This document shows, piece by piece, positions 9,088 through 24,393 of a stretch of DNA of 64,000 bases; the stretch's first letter is position 1; each line of letters begins with the position of its first letter. The position numbers and the translations under genes are program-made. The stretch spans positions 1-64,000 of the forward strand of contig CABZJI010000003.1 in NCBI GenBank assembly GCA_902526045.1. The letters run 5' to 3'. The notes under the pieces are model-generated. The model had not been told where the DNA came from. It worked only from the letters and a program-made list of their open reading frames with translations, and did not search any database. This DNA is from an uncultured SAR86 cluster bacterium (GTDB taxonomy: Bacteria > Pseudomonadota > Gammaproteobacteria > Magnimaribacterales > AG-339-G14).

Positions 9088-9179
9088 GGAGGGGTGGCAG
9101 AGTCTGGTTGAATGCACTGGTCTTGAAAACCAGCAGGTCAGAAATGGCCTCGTGGGTTCGAATCCCACCCCCTCCGCCA
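9088..9179 (+). tRNA. tRNA-Ser(UGA), encoded CCA
   Basis: GGAGGGG...CCCCTCC acceptor stem, anticodon stem-loop CTGGT-CTTGAAA-ACCAG, long variable arm, GGTTCGAATCC T-loop. Confidence 0.96.
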
Positions 9180-9187
9180 TATTTAAA

Positions 9188-9718
9188 ATGAATATATGTG
9201 TCTTTCTCGGATCATCACTAGGTAAAGAATCCATCTATGCCAAAATAGCCTTTGAACTAGGCAAACAAATTGCAATTAAAAATCATAAGCTTGTTTATGG
9301 TGGCGGAGGAATAGGTTTAATGAACGAACTAGCAAACGGTTGTCTTTCTGCAGGAGGCGAAGTTTATGGTGTCATCACTGAAAGATTAATTGATATGGAG
9401 GCTGGTCATGAGGGAATCCAGGAATTAATAATTGTAAAAACAATGCATGAAAGAAAGAAACTCATGTCTGAGGCTGCTGATTGCTTCATTTTATTGCCTG
9501 GCGGAGTTGGTTCATATGAGGAAATATTTGAAATCATGGCATGGAATCAATTAAAAATAATAAATAAACCCCTTTATGTGTTAAATACGAATGGTTTTTA
9601 TAATTCTTTAAAGCTATTTCTTGAGCACGCCAAGGACGAAGGGTTTTTCAGTGGAAAAACATTTGAAATGTTTAATTTATATGATTCTATTGATGACATT
9701 TTGTCTAAAATTAATTGA
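9188..9718 (+). CDS. LOG family (TIGR00730 Rossmann fold) protein
   Basis: CVFLGSS, YGGGGIGLMNELANG, ILLPGGVGSYEEIFEIMAWNQL; ATG at 9188, so the supplied 9152 start lies inside the tRNA. Confidence 0.92.
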   Translation: MNICVFLGSSLGKESIYAKIAFELGKQIAIKNHKLVYGGGGIGLMNELANGCLSAGGEVYGVITERLIDMEAGHEGIQELIIVKTMHERKKLMSEAADCFILLPGGVGSYEEIFEIMAWNQLKIINKPLYVLNTNGFYNSLKLFLEHAKDEGFFSGKTFEMFNLYDSIDDILSKIN

Positions 9719-9806
9719 AAATTAACATTTTTGAGTTCTTATTTTATAAATAAATATCAAAAACTTTTTTAATAATTAATTAATCTTAAAAAGTGTATTT
9801 TGGGTC

Positions 9807-9838
9807 TTGAATCAATTAAAAAAATCAGTAGTATAGAT
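9807..9838 (+). promoter_or_regulatory. Candidate sigma70 promoter for the intergenic RNA
   Basis: TTGAAT at 9807-9812 and TAGTATAGAT around 9829-9838; spacing is imperfect. Confidence 0.35.
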
Positions 9839-9844
9839 ATCAGT

Positions 9845-10026
9845 CTTTTAACAAAACTTAACTAACTCGAGACGGTCAAGCAGAAGTAAAAGATGAGAAG
9901 AAGAAGGGTGAGAAGAACTGGGGAAACTCAGCCACTTACAGGGAGAAGGGTCAATCGCCTGTATCAGTAGAACCCACTGAACCCCTTCAACTTCGATAAA
10001 ACACCACTTTTGTGGTGTTTTTTTTT
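9845..10026 (+). ncRNA. Candidate structured non-coding RNA (small RNA or trpS leader/attenuator)
   Basis: GC-enriched intergenic block with nested helices: 9867-9871/9992-9996, 9903-9908/9983-9988, hairpin 9918-9931 (CUGGG-GAAA-CUCAG), 9938-9942/9958-9962, 9965-9968/9976-9979, ending in an intrinsic terminator. Confidence 0.6.
9998..10026 (+). terminator. Rho-independent terminator
   Basis: AAACACCAC-TTTT-GTGGTGTTT followed by a T-run. Confidence 0.9.
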
Positions 10027-10037
10027 ATACTTACACT

Positions 10038-11021
10038 ATGAATTCTTCGCTCACAGGCATAACGACTACAGGTACGCCTCATTTGGGTAATTATGTTGGA
10101 GCTATTAAACCCGCTATACAATTAAGCAAAAAATTTAAATCCTATCTTTTCTTAGCTGATTATCATTCTTTAATAAAAGTAAATGATGCAAACGCCATAA
10201 AAGAATCATCTTTGAAAATAGCTGCAACTTGGTTGGCATGTGGGCTTGATACTAATAGCGCTCTTTTTTACAGACAATCTAAAATTCCACAAATATTGGA
10301 ATTAAATTGGATCCTGTCATGCATGGCACCGAAAGGACTCCTTAATAGGGCACATGCTTATAAAGCAGCGGTTGATCTAAATAAAGAAAATACAAACGAC
10401 GATGATTTTGGTATATCTCATGGTTTATTTAGTTATCCAGTGTTGATGTCAGCAGATATTTTGATGTTCAATCCTAAGTATGTTCCTGTAGGAAAAGACC
10501 AAAAACAACATTTAGAAATTACTCGCGATATAGCAGATAAATTTAATAAAACTTATAAAAATTTTTTTCAATTACCCGAACCCATTATTGATGAATCTCT
10601 TGATTTATTGACTGGGACAGACGGAAGAAAGATGAGTAAAAGTTACAATAACTCAATTGAATTATTTTCATCTGAAAAAATTTTACAAAAATCTATCAAT
10701 AAAATTAGAACCGATTCGAAAGAGCCGGGCGAAAAAAAAGAAACAAAAGATTCAATTATTTTTCAGTACTTTAATCACTTTTCTGACGAAGAAGAAATAA
10801 TTGAGATAACCAAAGAGTTTGATGACGGAATTGGTTGGGGAGACGCCAAGAAAAAGTTATTTACAAAAATTAATCAAGAAATATCTCCTTTTAGAGATAA
10901 ATATTTTGAATTAATAAATAAACCTAAATTGATAGAAGATACATTAGAGGCTGGAGAAACTGAGGCTAGAGATGAGGCTAATAAAAATTTAGAGAAAATT
11001 AAGGAAAAAATTGGAATTTGA
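10038..11021 (+). CDS. trpS: Tryptophanyl-tRNA synthetase
   Basis: GITTTGTPHLGNYVGAIKP, DYHSLIKV, GTDGRKMSKSYNN. Confidence 0.95.
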   Translation: MNSSLTGITTTGTPHLGNYVGAIKPAIQLSKKFKSYLFLADYHSLIKVNDANAIKESSLKIAATWLACGLDTNSALFYRQSKIPQILELNWILSCMAPKGLLNRAHAYKAAVDLNKENTNDDDFGISHGLFSYPVLMSADILMFNPKYVPVGKDQKQHLEITRDIADKFNKTYKNFFQLPEPIIDESLDLLTGTDGRKMSKSYNNSIELFSSEKILQKSINKIRTDSKEPGEKKETKDSIIFQYFNHFSDEEEIIEITKEFDDGIGWGDAKKKLFTKINQEISPFRDKYFELINKPKLIEDTLEAGETEARDEANKNLEKIKEKIGI

Positions 11022-21569: not shown

Positions 21570-22156
21570 CTGAATTTCTTTTAATTGCTTCCATTCATCT
21601 TGTAGCGGTTATAAGTCCTGGACCTGATTTTGCTGTTGTACTAAGACAATCACTATCATCTTCAAGGAGAGCGTCAATTTTTACCGCTTTTGGTATTGCT
21701 ACCAGTGAATTTTTTCATTGTCTATATTCTATTTTTGGAATGGAATTAATTATGAGATATCAAGAAAATATATTTCTCGTGCTTAAACCTATAGCTATTT
21801 TATATTTAATGTATTTGGGAATTTCTTCTTTTTTTACTAATCGACCATCAGAAACAGTAGCACATTCAAGTTCCAAAAATTTCACCCTTGGATTTACGAC
21901 AAATCTTCTTAATCTTCAGGCAAGTACATTTACATTTACCTTATTTTTTGCAATTGTAAGCATTGATACTCCTTTAAATATCCTGTTTGTTTATGCTCTA
22001 TTTATAGCAATTAGTACTTTTATGTGGTTTGGGTTTTTGTCTTTATTGCTCACAAGTAAAGGATTTTTATATAAATTTAATAATTTCACCCCCTGGATAT
22101 ACAAATTTACTGGAATCGTTTTTATAATTAGTTCTTTTTATTTATTAACTTTGTAA
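21566..22156 (+). CDS. LysE family translocator
   Basis: ISPGPDFAVVLRQSLSSSRRASIFTAFGIA; multi-TM. Confidence 0.88.
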   Translation: MTEFLLIASIHLVAVISPGPDFAVVLRQSLSSSRRASIFTAFGIATSEFFHCLYSIFGMELIMRYQENIFLVLKPIAILYLMYLGISSFFTNRPSETVAHSSSKNFTLGFTTNLLNLQASTFTFTLFFAIVSIDTPLNILFVYALFIAISTFMWFGFLSLLLTSKGFLYKFNNFTPWIYKFTGIVFIISSFYLLTL

Positions 22157-22719
22157 TGAAATCTGGACCAAAAACATCTGCTCAATTATTTAGTGATATT
22201 TTGAAACTTCAAAATGAAGGTTCACTTCCTCCGGTAGATGATTGGAACCCTCCTTTATGTGAAAACGTTCAGATGAAAATATCCAGAGATGGAAAATGGT
22301 ATTTTATGGATTCTCCTATAGGCCGCGAGAAAATGGTTAATTTATTTAGCACAGTTCTAAGATTTGATGATGATGGAAATTACTATCTTGTTACTCCTGT
22401 AGAAAAAATCAAGATTGAAGTTGAAGATAAGCCCTTTATTATCGTTACCTACCAAAAAGAAATTAAAAACAATAAAAAGGTATTTTTATTCAAGACCAAT
22501 GTTGGTGATATTGTACTTTTAGATACTCTAGATAAATTAAGAGTTGAAATTGATAAAGATACACAAGAACCTTCGCCATATTTAAAAGTAAGAAAAAACC
22601 TAGAAGGGCTGATCAGTAGAAATGTTTTTTACCGATTAGTAGACGAATCCTACGAGAGAGATAAGGAATTGTTTATTAAAAGTAACAACAAAGAATTTTC
22701 GCTCGGAAAATTGGACTGA
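22156..22719 (+). CDS. DUF1285 domain protein
   Basis: LPPVDDWNPPLCENVQMKISRDGKWYFMDSPIGREKMVNLFSTVLRFDDDGNYYLVTPVEK. Confidence 0.85.
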   Translation: MKSGPKTSAQLFSDILKLQNEGSLPPVDDWNPPLCENVQMKISRDGKWYFMDSPIGREKMVNLFSTVLRFDDDGNYYLVTPVEKIKIEVEDKPFIIVTYQKEIKNNKKVFLFKTNVGDIVLLDTLDKLRVEIDKDTQEPSPYLKVRKNLEGLISRNVFYRLVDESYERDKELFIKSNNKEFSLGKLD

Positions 22720-24393
22720 TTACATATTTGGATAGTTTGGCCCGCCCATACCTTCTGGGGTAACCCAAACTATATTTTGACTTGGATCTTTGATATCGCA
22801 AGTTTTACAATGAACACAATTTTGAGCATTAATTTGAAACTTCTTTTCTCCGTCTTTTTCCACAACTTCATATACTCCAGCAGGACAGTATCGTTGGGCA
22901 GGTTCATCATATTCAGGGAGATTGACAGATATAGGTATAGCAGGATCTTTTAATGTTAGATGGCAAGGTTGATCCTCTTCGTGATTGGTATTAGAAAGAA
23001 ATACAGAAGATAATTTATCAAAGCTCACAACACCATCTGGCTTAGGATAATCAATAGGTTTAGTTTCTGAAACTTTTTTCAAACAAGCATAGTCTGGAGT
23101 AGGGTGATTAAGTGTAAAAGGAAGCTTACCTCGAAAAATTAATTGGTCTATAGCAGCTAAAGCTACTCCAATTAGCCCTTTGAAGCCCCACTTTAAACCA
23201 TTATGAAGAAAAGGACCCCAGTTTCTAGCTTTGTGCAATTCCTTGTTGGCCCAAGATTTTTCAAATTCTTTTTCATAACTAACTAAATCAGCATCATTTA
23301 CTTGATTCTTGATAGCTTCAAATACTACTTCTGCTCCTATCATTCCAGATTTCATTGCTGTGTGAGTACCTTTAATTTTAGGGAAGTTTAAAGTACCAGC
23401 GTTATCTCCAACCAACAGACCTCCTGGAAATGACATTTTTGGTCTAGATTGGTAACCACCTTTGATTAAAGCTCTTGCTCCATAGGCAACCCTTTTACCT
23501 TTCTCTAAAATCTTTTTAATATCTTTTTGCTGTTTCCATTGTTGAAATTCATCAAAAGGGCTTATGTGAGGATTTTCATAATCCAGTGGGACAACATAGC
23601 CTAAATAAATTTGATTATTTTCGCCATGATAAAAATAGGATCCAGATATGGTTCCATTGCTTGGCCATCCCATTGTATGCATAACTGTTCCTTCCTTATG
23701 ATCTTCAGGTGAAATATCCCAAATTTCTTTAAAACCTATTCCATAATGTTGAGGATCTTTATTATCATCGAGATTAAATTTATTAATAAGTTGTTTACCT
23801 AAATGACCACGGCAGCCTTCAGCGAAAATAGTGTATTTACCCCTTAACTCCATTGATGGTTGATAGGACGGTTTTTTTTCTCCTTCCTTAGTAACACCCA
23901 TTTCTCCGGTTAGGATTCCTTTAACAATGTCCCCTTCAAATATGACATCTGAGGCAGTAAATCCTGGAAAGATTTCGACTCCTAAACTTTCAGCTTGAGA
24001 GGCAAGCCATCTGCAGAAATTAGCCAAACTCATGACATAATTTCCATGATTATTAAAGGTTGGAATTAAAAAACTTGGAAAAGGAATGTTAAAAGAAAGA
24101 TTCTCGGAAATAACAAATTTAACGATATCCTTTGTTGCAGGAGAATTCAAAGGTGCTTCTTTGTCTTTCCAATCAGGAATAAGTTCATTAAGCGCAGTAG
24201 GCTCGAATACATTTCCAGATAGTATATGCGCCCCAATTTCTGAACCTTTTTCGATAAGGCAGACACTTAGATCTGTATTACTCTCAGATGCTAGTTGTTT
24301 TAGTCTTATTGCTGTGGATAGCCCTGATGGACCACCACCTACAATAACAACGTCATATTCCATGACGTCTCTTTCTTGTTGTATTTCTTCCAT
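22720..24393 (-). CDS. Electron transfer flavoprotein-ubiquinone oxidoreductase
   Basis: VVIVGGGPSGLSTAIRL, GAHILSGNVFEP, C-terminal CVHCKTCDIKDPSQNIVWVTPEGMGGPNYPNM. Confidence 0.96.
   Translation of the reverse strand: MEEIQQERDVMEYDVVIVGGGPSGLSTAIRLKQLASESNTDLSVCLIEKGSEIGAHILSGNVFEPTALNELIPDWKDKEAPLNSPATKDIVKFVISENLSFNIPFPSFLIPTFNNHGNYVMSLANFCRWLASQAESLGVEIFPGFTASDVIFEGDIVKGILTGEMGVTKEGEKKPSYQPSMELRGKYTIFAEGCRGHLGKQLINKFNLDDNKDPQHYGIGFKEIWDISPEDHKEGTVMHTMGWPSNGTISGSYFYHGENNQIYLGYVVPLDYENPHISPFDEFQQWKQQKDIKKILEKGKRVAYGARALIKGGYQSRPKMSFPGGLLVGDNAGTLNFPKIKGTHTAMKSGMIGAEVVFEAIKNQVNDADLVSYEKEFEKSWANKELHKARNWGPFLHNGLKWGFKGLIGVALAAIDQLIFRGKLPFTLNHPTPDYACLKKVSETKPIDYPKPDGVVSFDKLSSVFLSNTNHEEDQPCHLTLKDPAIPISVNLPEYDEPAQRYCPAGVYEVVEKDGEKKFQINAQNCVHCKTCDIKDPSQNIVWVTPEGMGGPNYPNM

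Follow-up and report, generated by a model that had tools for sequence, protein, structure and literature searches.

IMES-5 RNA upstream of trpS in a SAR86 bacterium, its kinship with IMES-1, and palindromic loops that suggest assembly by symmetric kissing-loop pairing

The DNA analyzed here, referred to as the window, is a stretch of 64,000 nucleotides from an uncultured SAR86 cluster bacterium (contig CABZJI010000003.1). The region of interest lies between two genes which we take to be a LOG-family gene and trpS, the names assigned in the original prediction, in agreement with the sequences. A tRNA-Ser(UGA) is located directly 5' of the LOG gene (9088-9179), and no Shine-Dalgarno sequence is visible at trpS. 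The features of the locus are as follows.

Positions 9152 or 9188 to 9718: LOG-family gene, the 5' neighbor of IMES-5.
Positions 9807-9834, plus strand: putative promoter element, TTGAAT (9807-9812), 16 nt, TAGTAT (9829-9834).
Positions 9845-9995, plus strand: IMES-5 RNA core, a full-length match to the RF02995 covariance model.
Positions 9998-10026, plus strand: intrinsic terminator, with a stem of 10 bp at 9998-10021 and a loop of 4, followed by a T-run.
Positions 10026-10031, plus strand: TATACT, a probable -10-like box outside IMES-5, 6 nt before the ATG of trpS (10038).
Positions 10038-11021: trpS, the 3' neighbor of IMES-5.

It can be observed that positions 9845-9995 of the plus strand match Rfam family RF02995 (IMES-5) with 131.8 bits and an E-value of 8e-26 over model positions 1-150 of 150, the gathering cut-off of the family being 96.1 bits. 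The RNA had been put forward as undescribed; the Rfam check instead places it in a catalogued family, although we know of no function for the IMES RNAs. IMES-5 is single-copy in the host genome. A sub-threshold RF02034 match elsewhere in that genome (G000:C2:144335-144455, E 0.0067) was considered as a second IMES copy and attributed to chance, because it falls inside a coding frame read in the same direction. Pattern matches in Bacteroidia and Acidobacteria contigs (L123, L137) were also regarded as chance, the IMES-5 model having no match there. The earlier view that this is not 6S RNA holds, as RF00013 has no match in the window, and a role of IMES-5 as a 6S replacement was discarded, a separate 6S gene being present at G000:C1:26546-26716.

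The window copy shares the consensus structure of RF02995, apart from slight differences in spacing and inner pairs of P4 that are weak. Its elements are listed below.

Positions 9845-9892, plus strand: P1, a 5' double hairpin (9845-9851 with 9886-9892 and 9858-9863 with 9874-9879), with double changes in 12 of 13 pairs.
Positions 9866-9871, plus strand: P1 loop palindrome CUCGAG, the proposed kissing (dimer) site, with self-complementarity kept in 45 of 46 distinct IMES-5 copies.
Positions 9897-9994, plus strand: P2, in which GAAG (9897-9900) pairs with CUUC (9991-9994) and GAAGGG (9903-9908) with CCCUUC (9983-9988), closing a three-hairpin junction.
Positions 9918-9931, plus strand: P3, the hairpin CUGGG-GAAA-CUCAG, with double changes in 5 of 5 pairs.
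Positions 9937-9963, plus strand: P4 hairpin, UACAGG (9937-9942) with CCUGUA (9958-9963), loop GGGU (9948-9951).
Positions 9964-9980, plus strand: P5 hairpin, UCAGU (9964-9968) with ACUGA (9976-9980), loop ACCC (9972-9975).

The minimum free energy of the window copy is only mildly unusual when taken by itself; since the z-score is only -1.91, with 10 of 200 shuffles folding equally well, folding energy alone is unconvincing. Comparison of 35 homologues, the window copy included, was more informative. In a structure count that includes both the P1 palindrome and the pairing between the P4 and P5 loops, 85.1% of cells were paired; the corresponding values were 71.2% for shuffles and at most 48.5% for the structure slid along the alignment. 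Double changes were found in 30 of 50 pairs, and none of 500 shuffles reached the real alignment in covariation score, cells paired or double-change cells. Together with the Rfam match, this covariation bears out the proposal of a real structured RNA. Regarding individual elements, P2 has 99.7% of its cells paired but is nearly invariant, with a double change in one pair only, while P4 displays double changes in 7 of 10 pairs, its inner four pairs being poorly conserved. The originally drawn helices GAAGGG/CCCUUC, CUGGG-GAAA-CUCAG, ACAGG/CCUGU and CAGU/ACUG are all present, each either in the Rfam consensus or supported by the present analysis. The outer helix drawn between UCGAG (9867-9871) and UUCGA (9992-9996), however, is not conserved: the pairing breaks because the corresponding loop of the IMES-1 RNAs is CUGCAG in two families while the 3' CUCGA stays. 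The supported alternatives are the P1 double hairpin, which carries CUCGAG in its loop, and the GAAG/CUUC extension of P2. The kissing loop suggested between GGGU and ACCC fared better, being kept in 98.6% of cells across the 35 homologues with double changes in 2 of 4 pairs; the homologous loops of IMES-1 are GAGA and UCUC, with a few further coordinated changes. As judged from the alignments, this P4/P5 loop-loop pairing is supported, either within or between molecules. The RF02995 structure line from cmscan can display neither this pairing nor the palindrome, and both go beyond it.

Regarding transcription, the promoter-like element proposed upstream is borne out by alignment, TTGNNN-16-TANNNT recurring at identical spacing in most of 46 IMES-5 homologues, whereas a simple promoter scan returned no consensus match for it. 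The predicted intrinsic terminator was confirmed by scanning, in which 9998-10021 was the sole terminator-like site within 9700-10100, and its hairpin and T-run are aligned throughout the host's family. The Rfam match, the covariation, the conserved promoter-like element and the terminator together support the suggestion of a standalone sRNA of approximately 180 nt. A second suggestion was a riboswitch or attenuator acting in cis on trpS, and it is true that IMES-5 lies directly 5' of trpS in both families having it, with a terminator standing between the RNA and the start codon. However, the TATACT box in front of trpS is conserved in the host's family, and trpS seems to have its own promoter 3' of the IMES-5 terminator, yielding a leaderless mRNA. 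TATAAT/TATACT-like AT-rich stretches also precede trpS in the families f2 and f4, which are without IMES-5 at trpS; the IMES-1 homologues sit at other loci; and an unsystematic inspection noticed no alternative pairing between the terminator and the RNA. Control of trpS in cis is therefore considered highly improbable.

The distribution of the IMES RNAs was analyzed in 203 genomes of the order, the families of which are denoted f1 to f4. IMES-5 is found in f1 and f3 (48 genomes), and IMES-1, frequently present twice, in f2, f3 and f4. Of the f1 genomes without IMES-5, five were checked; no trpS was found in these, the best candidate being a remote match, 37-38% identical, and because a close trpS match is missing too, assembly gaps are the likely cause. 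Family f3 carries both RNAs, approximately 14 kb apart and on opposite strands. Its gene order of LOG, IMES-5 and trpS is the same as in the window, and its IMES-1 is flanked by homologues of the window genes 22156-22719 and 22720-24393. In the window itself, these two convergent genes abut at 22719-22720, and IMES-1 is absent from the site where f3 carries it. Tandem IMES-1 genes, approximately 320 bp apart, were seen in some f2 genomes (L040, L042; G116, G100). IMES-1 was also sought outside the order, where it was not recovered: among 369 genomes of the class, the only matches were in two SAR86 genomes.

The two RNAs also recognize each other in model searches. The RF02034 (IMES-1) model matches the window copy with 27.6 bits against a gathering cut-off of 81 (E 4.6e-4), a value below family membership that marks a homologue, and a sister-genus IMES-5 copy with E 6.7e-6. 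Conversely, a model built only from IMES-5 (R1) gave next-best matches that were nearly all IMES-1 sites, with a best E-value of 0.0044. The single E-values are modest; the argument for homology rests on the shared layout and the coincident positions, and on this comparative evidence IMES-5 and IMES-1 are homologous. Common to both are the P1 palindromic loop, the junction closed by P2, the complementary P4 and P5 loops, a promoter and a terminator. IMES-1 differs in being longer, in its extended P3 bearing a second, variable palindrome, in having GAGA/UCUC where IMES-5 has GGGU/ACCC, and in its locus. The homology, the presence of both RNAs in one SAR86 family and the covarying palindromes are presented here as new, although parts may have been noted earlier: the literature searched made no mention of IMES-1 or IMES-5, and earlier notice of the palindromes or of the loop-loop pairing is possible.

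The palindromes deserve closer description. When all hexamer columns of IMES-5 were scanned, the P1 loop was the only register that can pair with itself in a majority of sequences; the single exception among the 46 copies reads CUAGAG, in which self-pairing is broken. In IMES-1, the P1 loop is CUCGAG or CUGCAG in 123 of 123 distinct copies, a GC/CG double switch. For IMES-5, the evidence for P1 self-pairing thus consists of a conserved, nearly invariant palindrome and one double change in IMES-1, and is moderate. On a TrpS tree, which is an unrooted tree of a single gene, the replacement of CUCGAG by CUGCAG in the IMES-1 P1 loop maps to the branch along which IMES-5 was lost. This coincidence would fit hetero-pairing between IMES-1 and IMES-5, though as a single event.

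The second palindrome, located in the loop of IMES-1 P3, is more variable. RNAalifold returned a poor structure of 18 pairs for the IMES-1 alignment, and a hand-set structure was counted instead. The P3 loop hexamer is self-complementary in 123 of 123 copies and exists as 12 distinct hexamers, of which seven are fully Watson-Crick (GUCGAC, GUAUAC, GUUAAC, GCUAGC, GGUACC, GCAUGC and GCCGGC) and five depend on G-U pairs (GUCGAU, GUCGGC, GUGCGC, GUGCAU and GUUGAC); it should be noted that the f3/f4 hexamer was located by a pattern fixing its first base as G and its sixth as C, which leaves only positions 2-5 unbiased. The other registers from -7 to +10 were self-complementary in 0-6% of copies, and offset -8, inside the stem, in 28%. 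Column shuffles of the 12 types gave a mean of 3.7 self-complementary hexamers, and 0 of 20000 reached 12. A column scan of a separately made alignment (A2) yielded 0.47 and 0.53 in two registers, corresponding to 19 of 19 f2 rows and 21 of 21 f3/f4 rows. On a tree built without the loop, the loop underwent 26 changes, 14 of which replace both partners of a pair, and complementarity is never broken. Immediately neighboring bases of one strand cannot pair with each other, so that the natural reading is that two molecules pair symmetrically; the hexamers that need G-U pairs speak for an RNA site and against one at the level of DNA. IMES-5 is without this P3 palindrome. Within each of 14 genomes compared, all IMES copies are cross-compatible, to which no weight is given, the copies being close kin.

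These observations also bear on whether the P1 palindrome is a binding sequence for a protein or a target RNA instead of a dimerization site. The near invariance of CUCGAG in IMES-5 would fit such a binding sequence, but many IMES-1 RNAs have another palindrome, CUGCAG, in the corresponding loop, and the second IMES-1 loop stays palindromic throughout its 26 changes. Because of this alternative palindrome and the second palindromic loop, self-pairing seems to be a recurrent trait of the superfamily, and we judge the binding-sequence explanation of P1 rather unlikely. Kissing-loop homo-oligomerization, which is predicted here by comparing sequences, has strong evidence for IMES-1 and moderate evidence for the IMES-5 of the window.

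The preferred reading of the locus, which we hold to be probable, is that the window encodes a standalone, trans-acting IMES-5 RNA of approximately 150 nt plus terminator, with its own promoter, whose P1 would join two molecules by a kissing loop. Transcription would begin at that promoter and end at the terminator. In the folded RNA, P2 closes P3, P4 and P5, with the loops of P4 and P5 pairing together, and P1 as a separate 5' hairpin presents CUCGAG, by which two RNAs would most likely join through a symmetric kissing loop. IMES-1, with the second palindromic loop on P3, could build larger assemblies, and where the two RNAs co-occur, their identical P1 loops could cross-pair. The assemblies may offer a partner access to the conserved purine-rich stretches. 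The RNA might thereby serve as an oligomeric scaffold or sequester a protein, and dimerization in the cell is itself presumed. More broadly, we lean, with less assurance, towards IMES-1 and IMES-5 forming one SAR86 superfamily that would assemble homo- or hetero-oligomers through symmetric kissing loops, IMES-5 as dimers or end-caps and IMES-1 as chains or closed assemblies.

The partner itself could be CsrA. IMES-5 might be the CsrA-sequestering RNA of SAR86, like CsrB or RsmY/RsmZ, with dimerization either incidental or serving to gather binding sites. CsrA was detected in 63 of the 203 genomes, all of them in f1 and f3, the carriers of IMES-5, and in none of 128 genomes of f2 and f4; the gene of the host lies at G000:C2:124027-124170. 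Long purine-rich stretches are left unpaired by the consensus structure. Moreover, Hfq (PF17209) was not found in 21 SAR86 genomes including that of the host, and because of this a classical Hfq-dependent base-pairing sRNA is less likely. Against CsrA sequestration, the same TrpS tree shows CsrA and IMES-5 being lost together just once, on the branch leading to f2 and f4, and GGA is not enriched, with a mean of 3.7 versus 4.4 expected among the 35 homologues. In the window copy, GGA occurs just twice, both times outside the conserved unpaired positions. Thus, although CsrB, RsmY and RsmZ are likewise standalone RNAs in CsrA-bearing genomes, IMES-5 differs from them in its lack of GGA enrichment, and we consider this explanation quite improbable. 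A possible CsrA link would nevertheless offer a second direct handle on IMES-5.

Returning to oligomerization as the preferred reading, the homology, the co-occurrence and the self-complementary loops render the question of IMES function concrete, namely dimerization. Should it be true, RNA-only assembly would occur in one of the most abundant bacterial groups of the ocean. The retroviral dimer initiation site, like the proposed IMES site, carries a palindrome of 6 nt with flanking A in the loop of a hairpin; it belongs to an unrelated RNA, and the analogy is one of mechanism alone. Closer in kind are the OLE, GOLLD and ROOL RNAs, which are far larger and were solved by cryo-EM, whereas the IMES RNAs are of 150-190 nt with oligomers predicted only. 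Symmetric kissing loops are common to all three; for OLE and GOLLD, the argument from palindrome covariation to homo-oligomers has been published (PMC12286853), both being supported by covarying palindromes. A covarying self-complementary loop of this type was found in IMES-1, while the IMES-5 palindrome, though conserved, hardly varies. If the proposed pairing is true, small RNAs would join the few natural RNAs for which homo-oligomers have evolutionary support.
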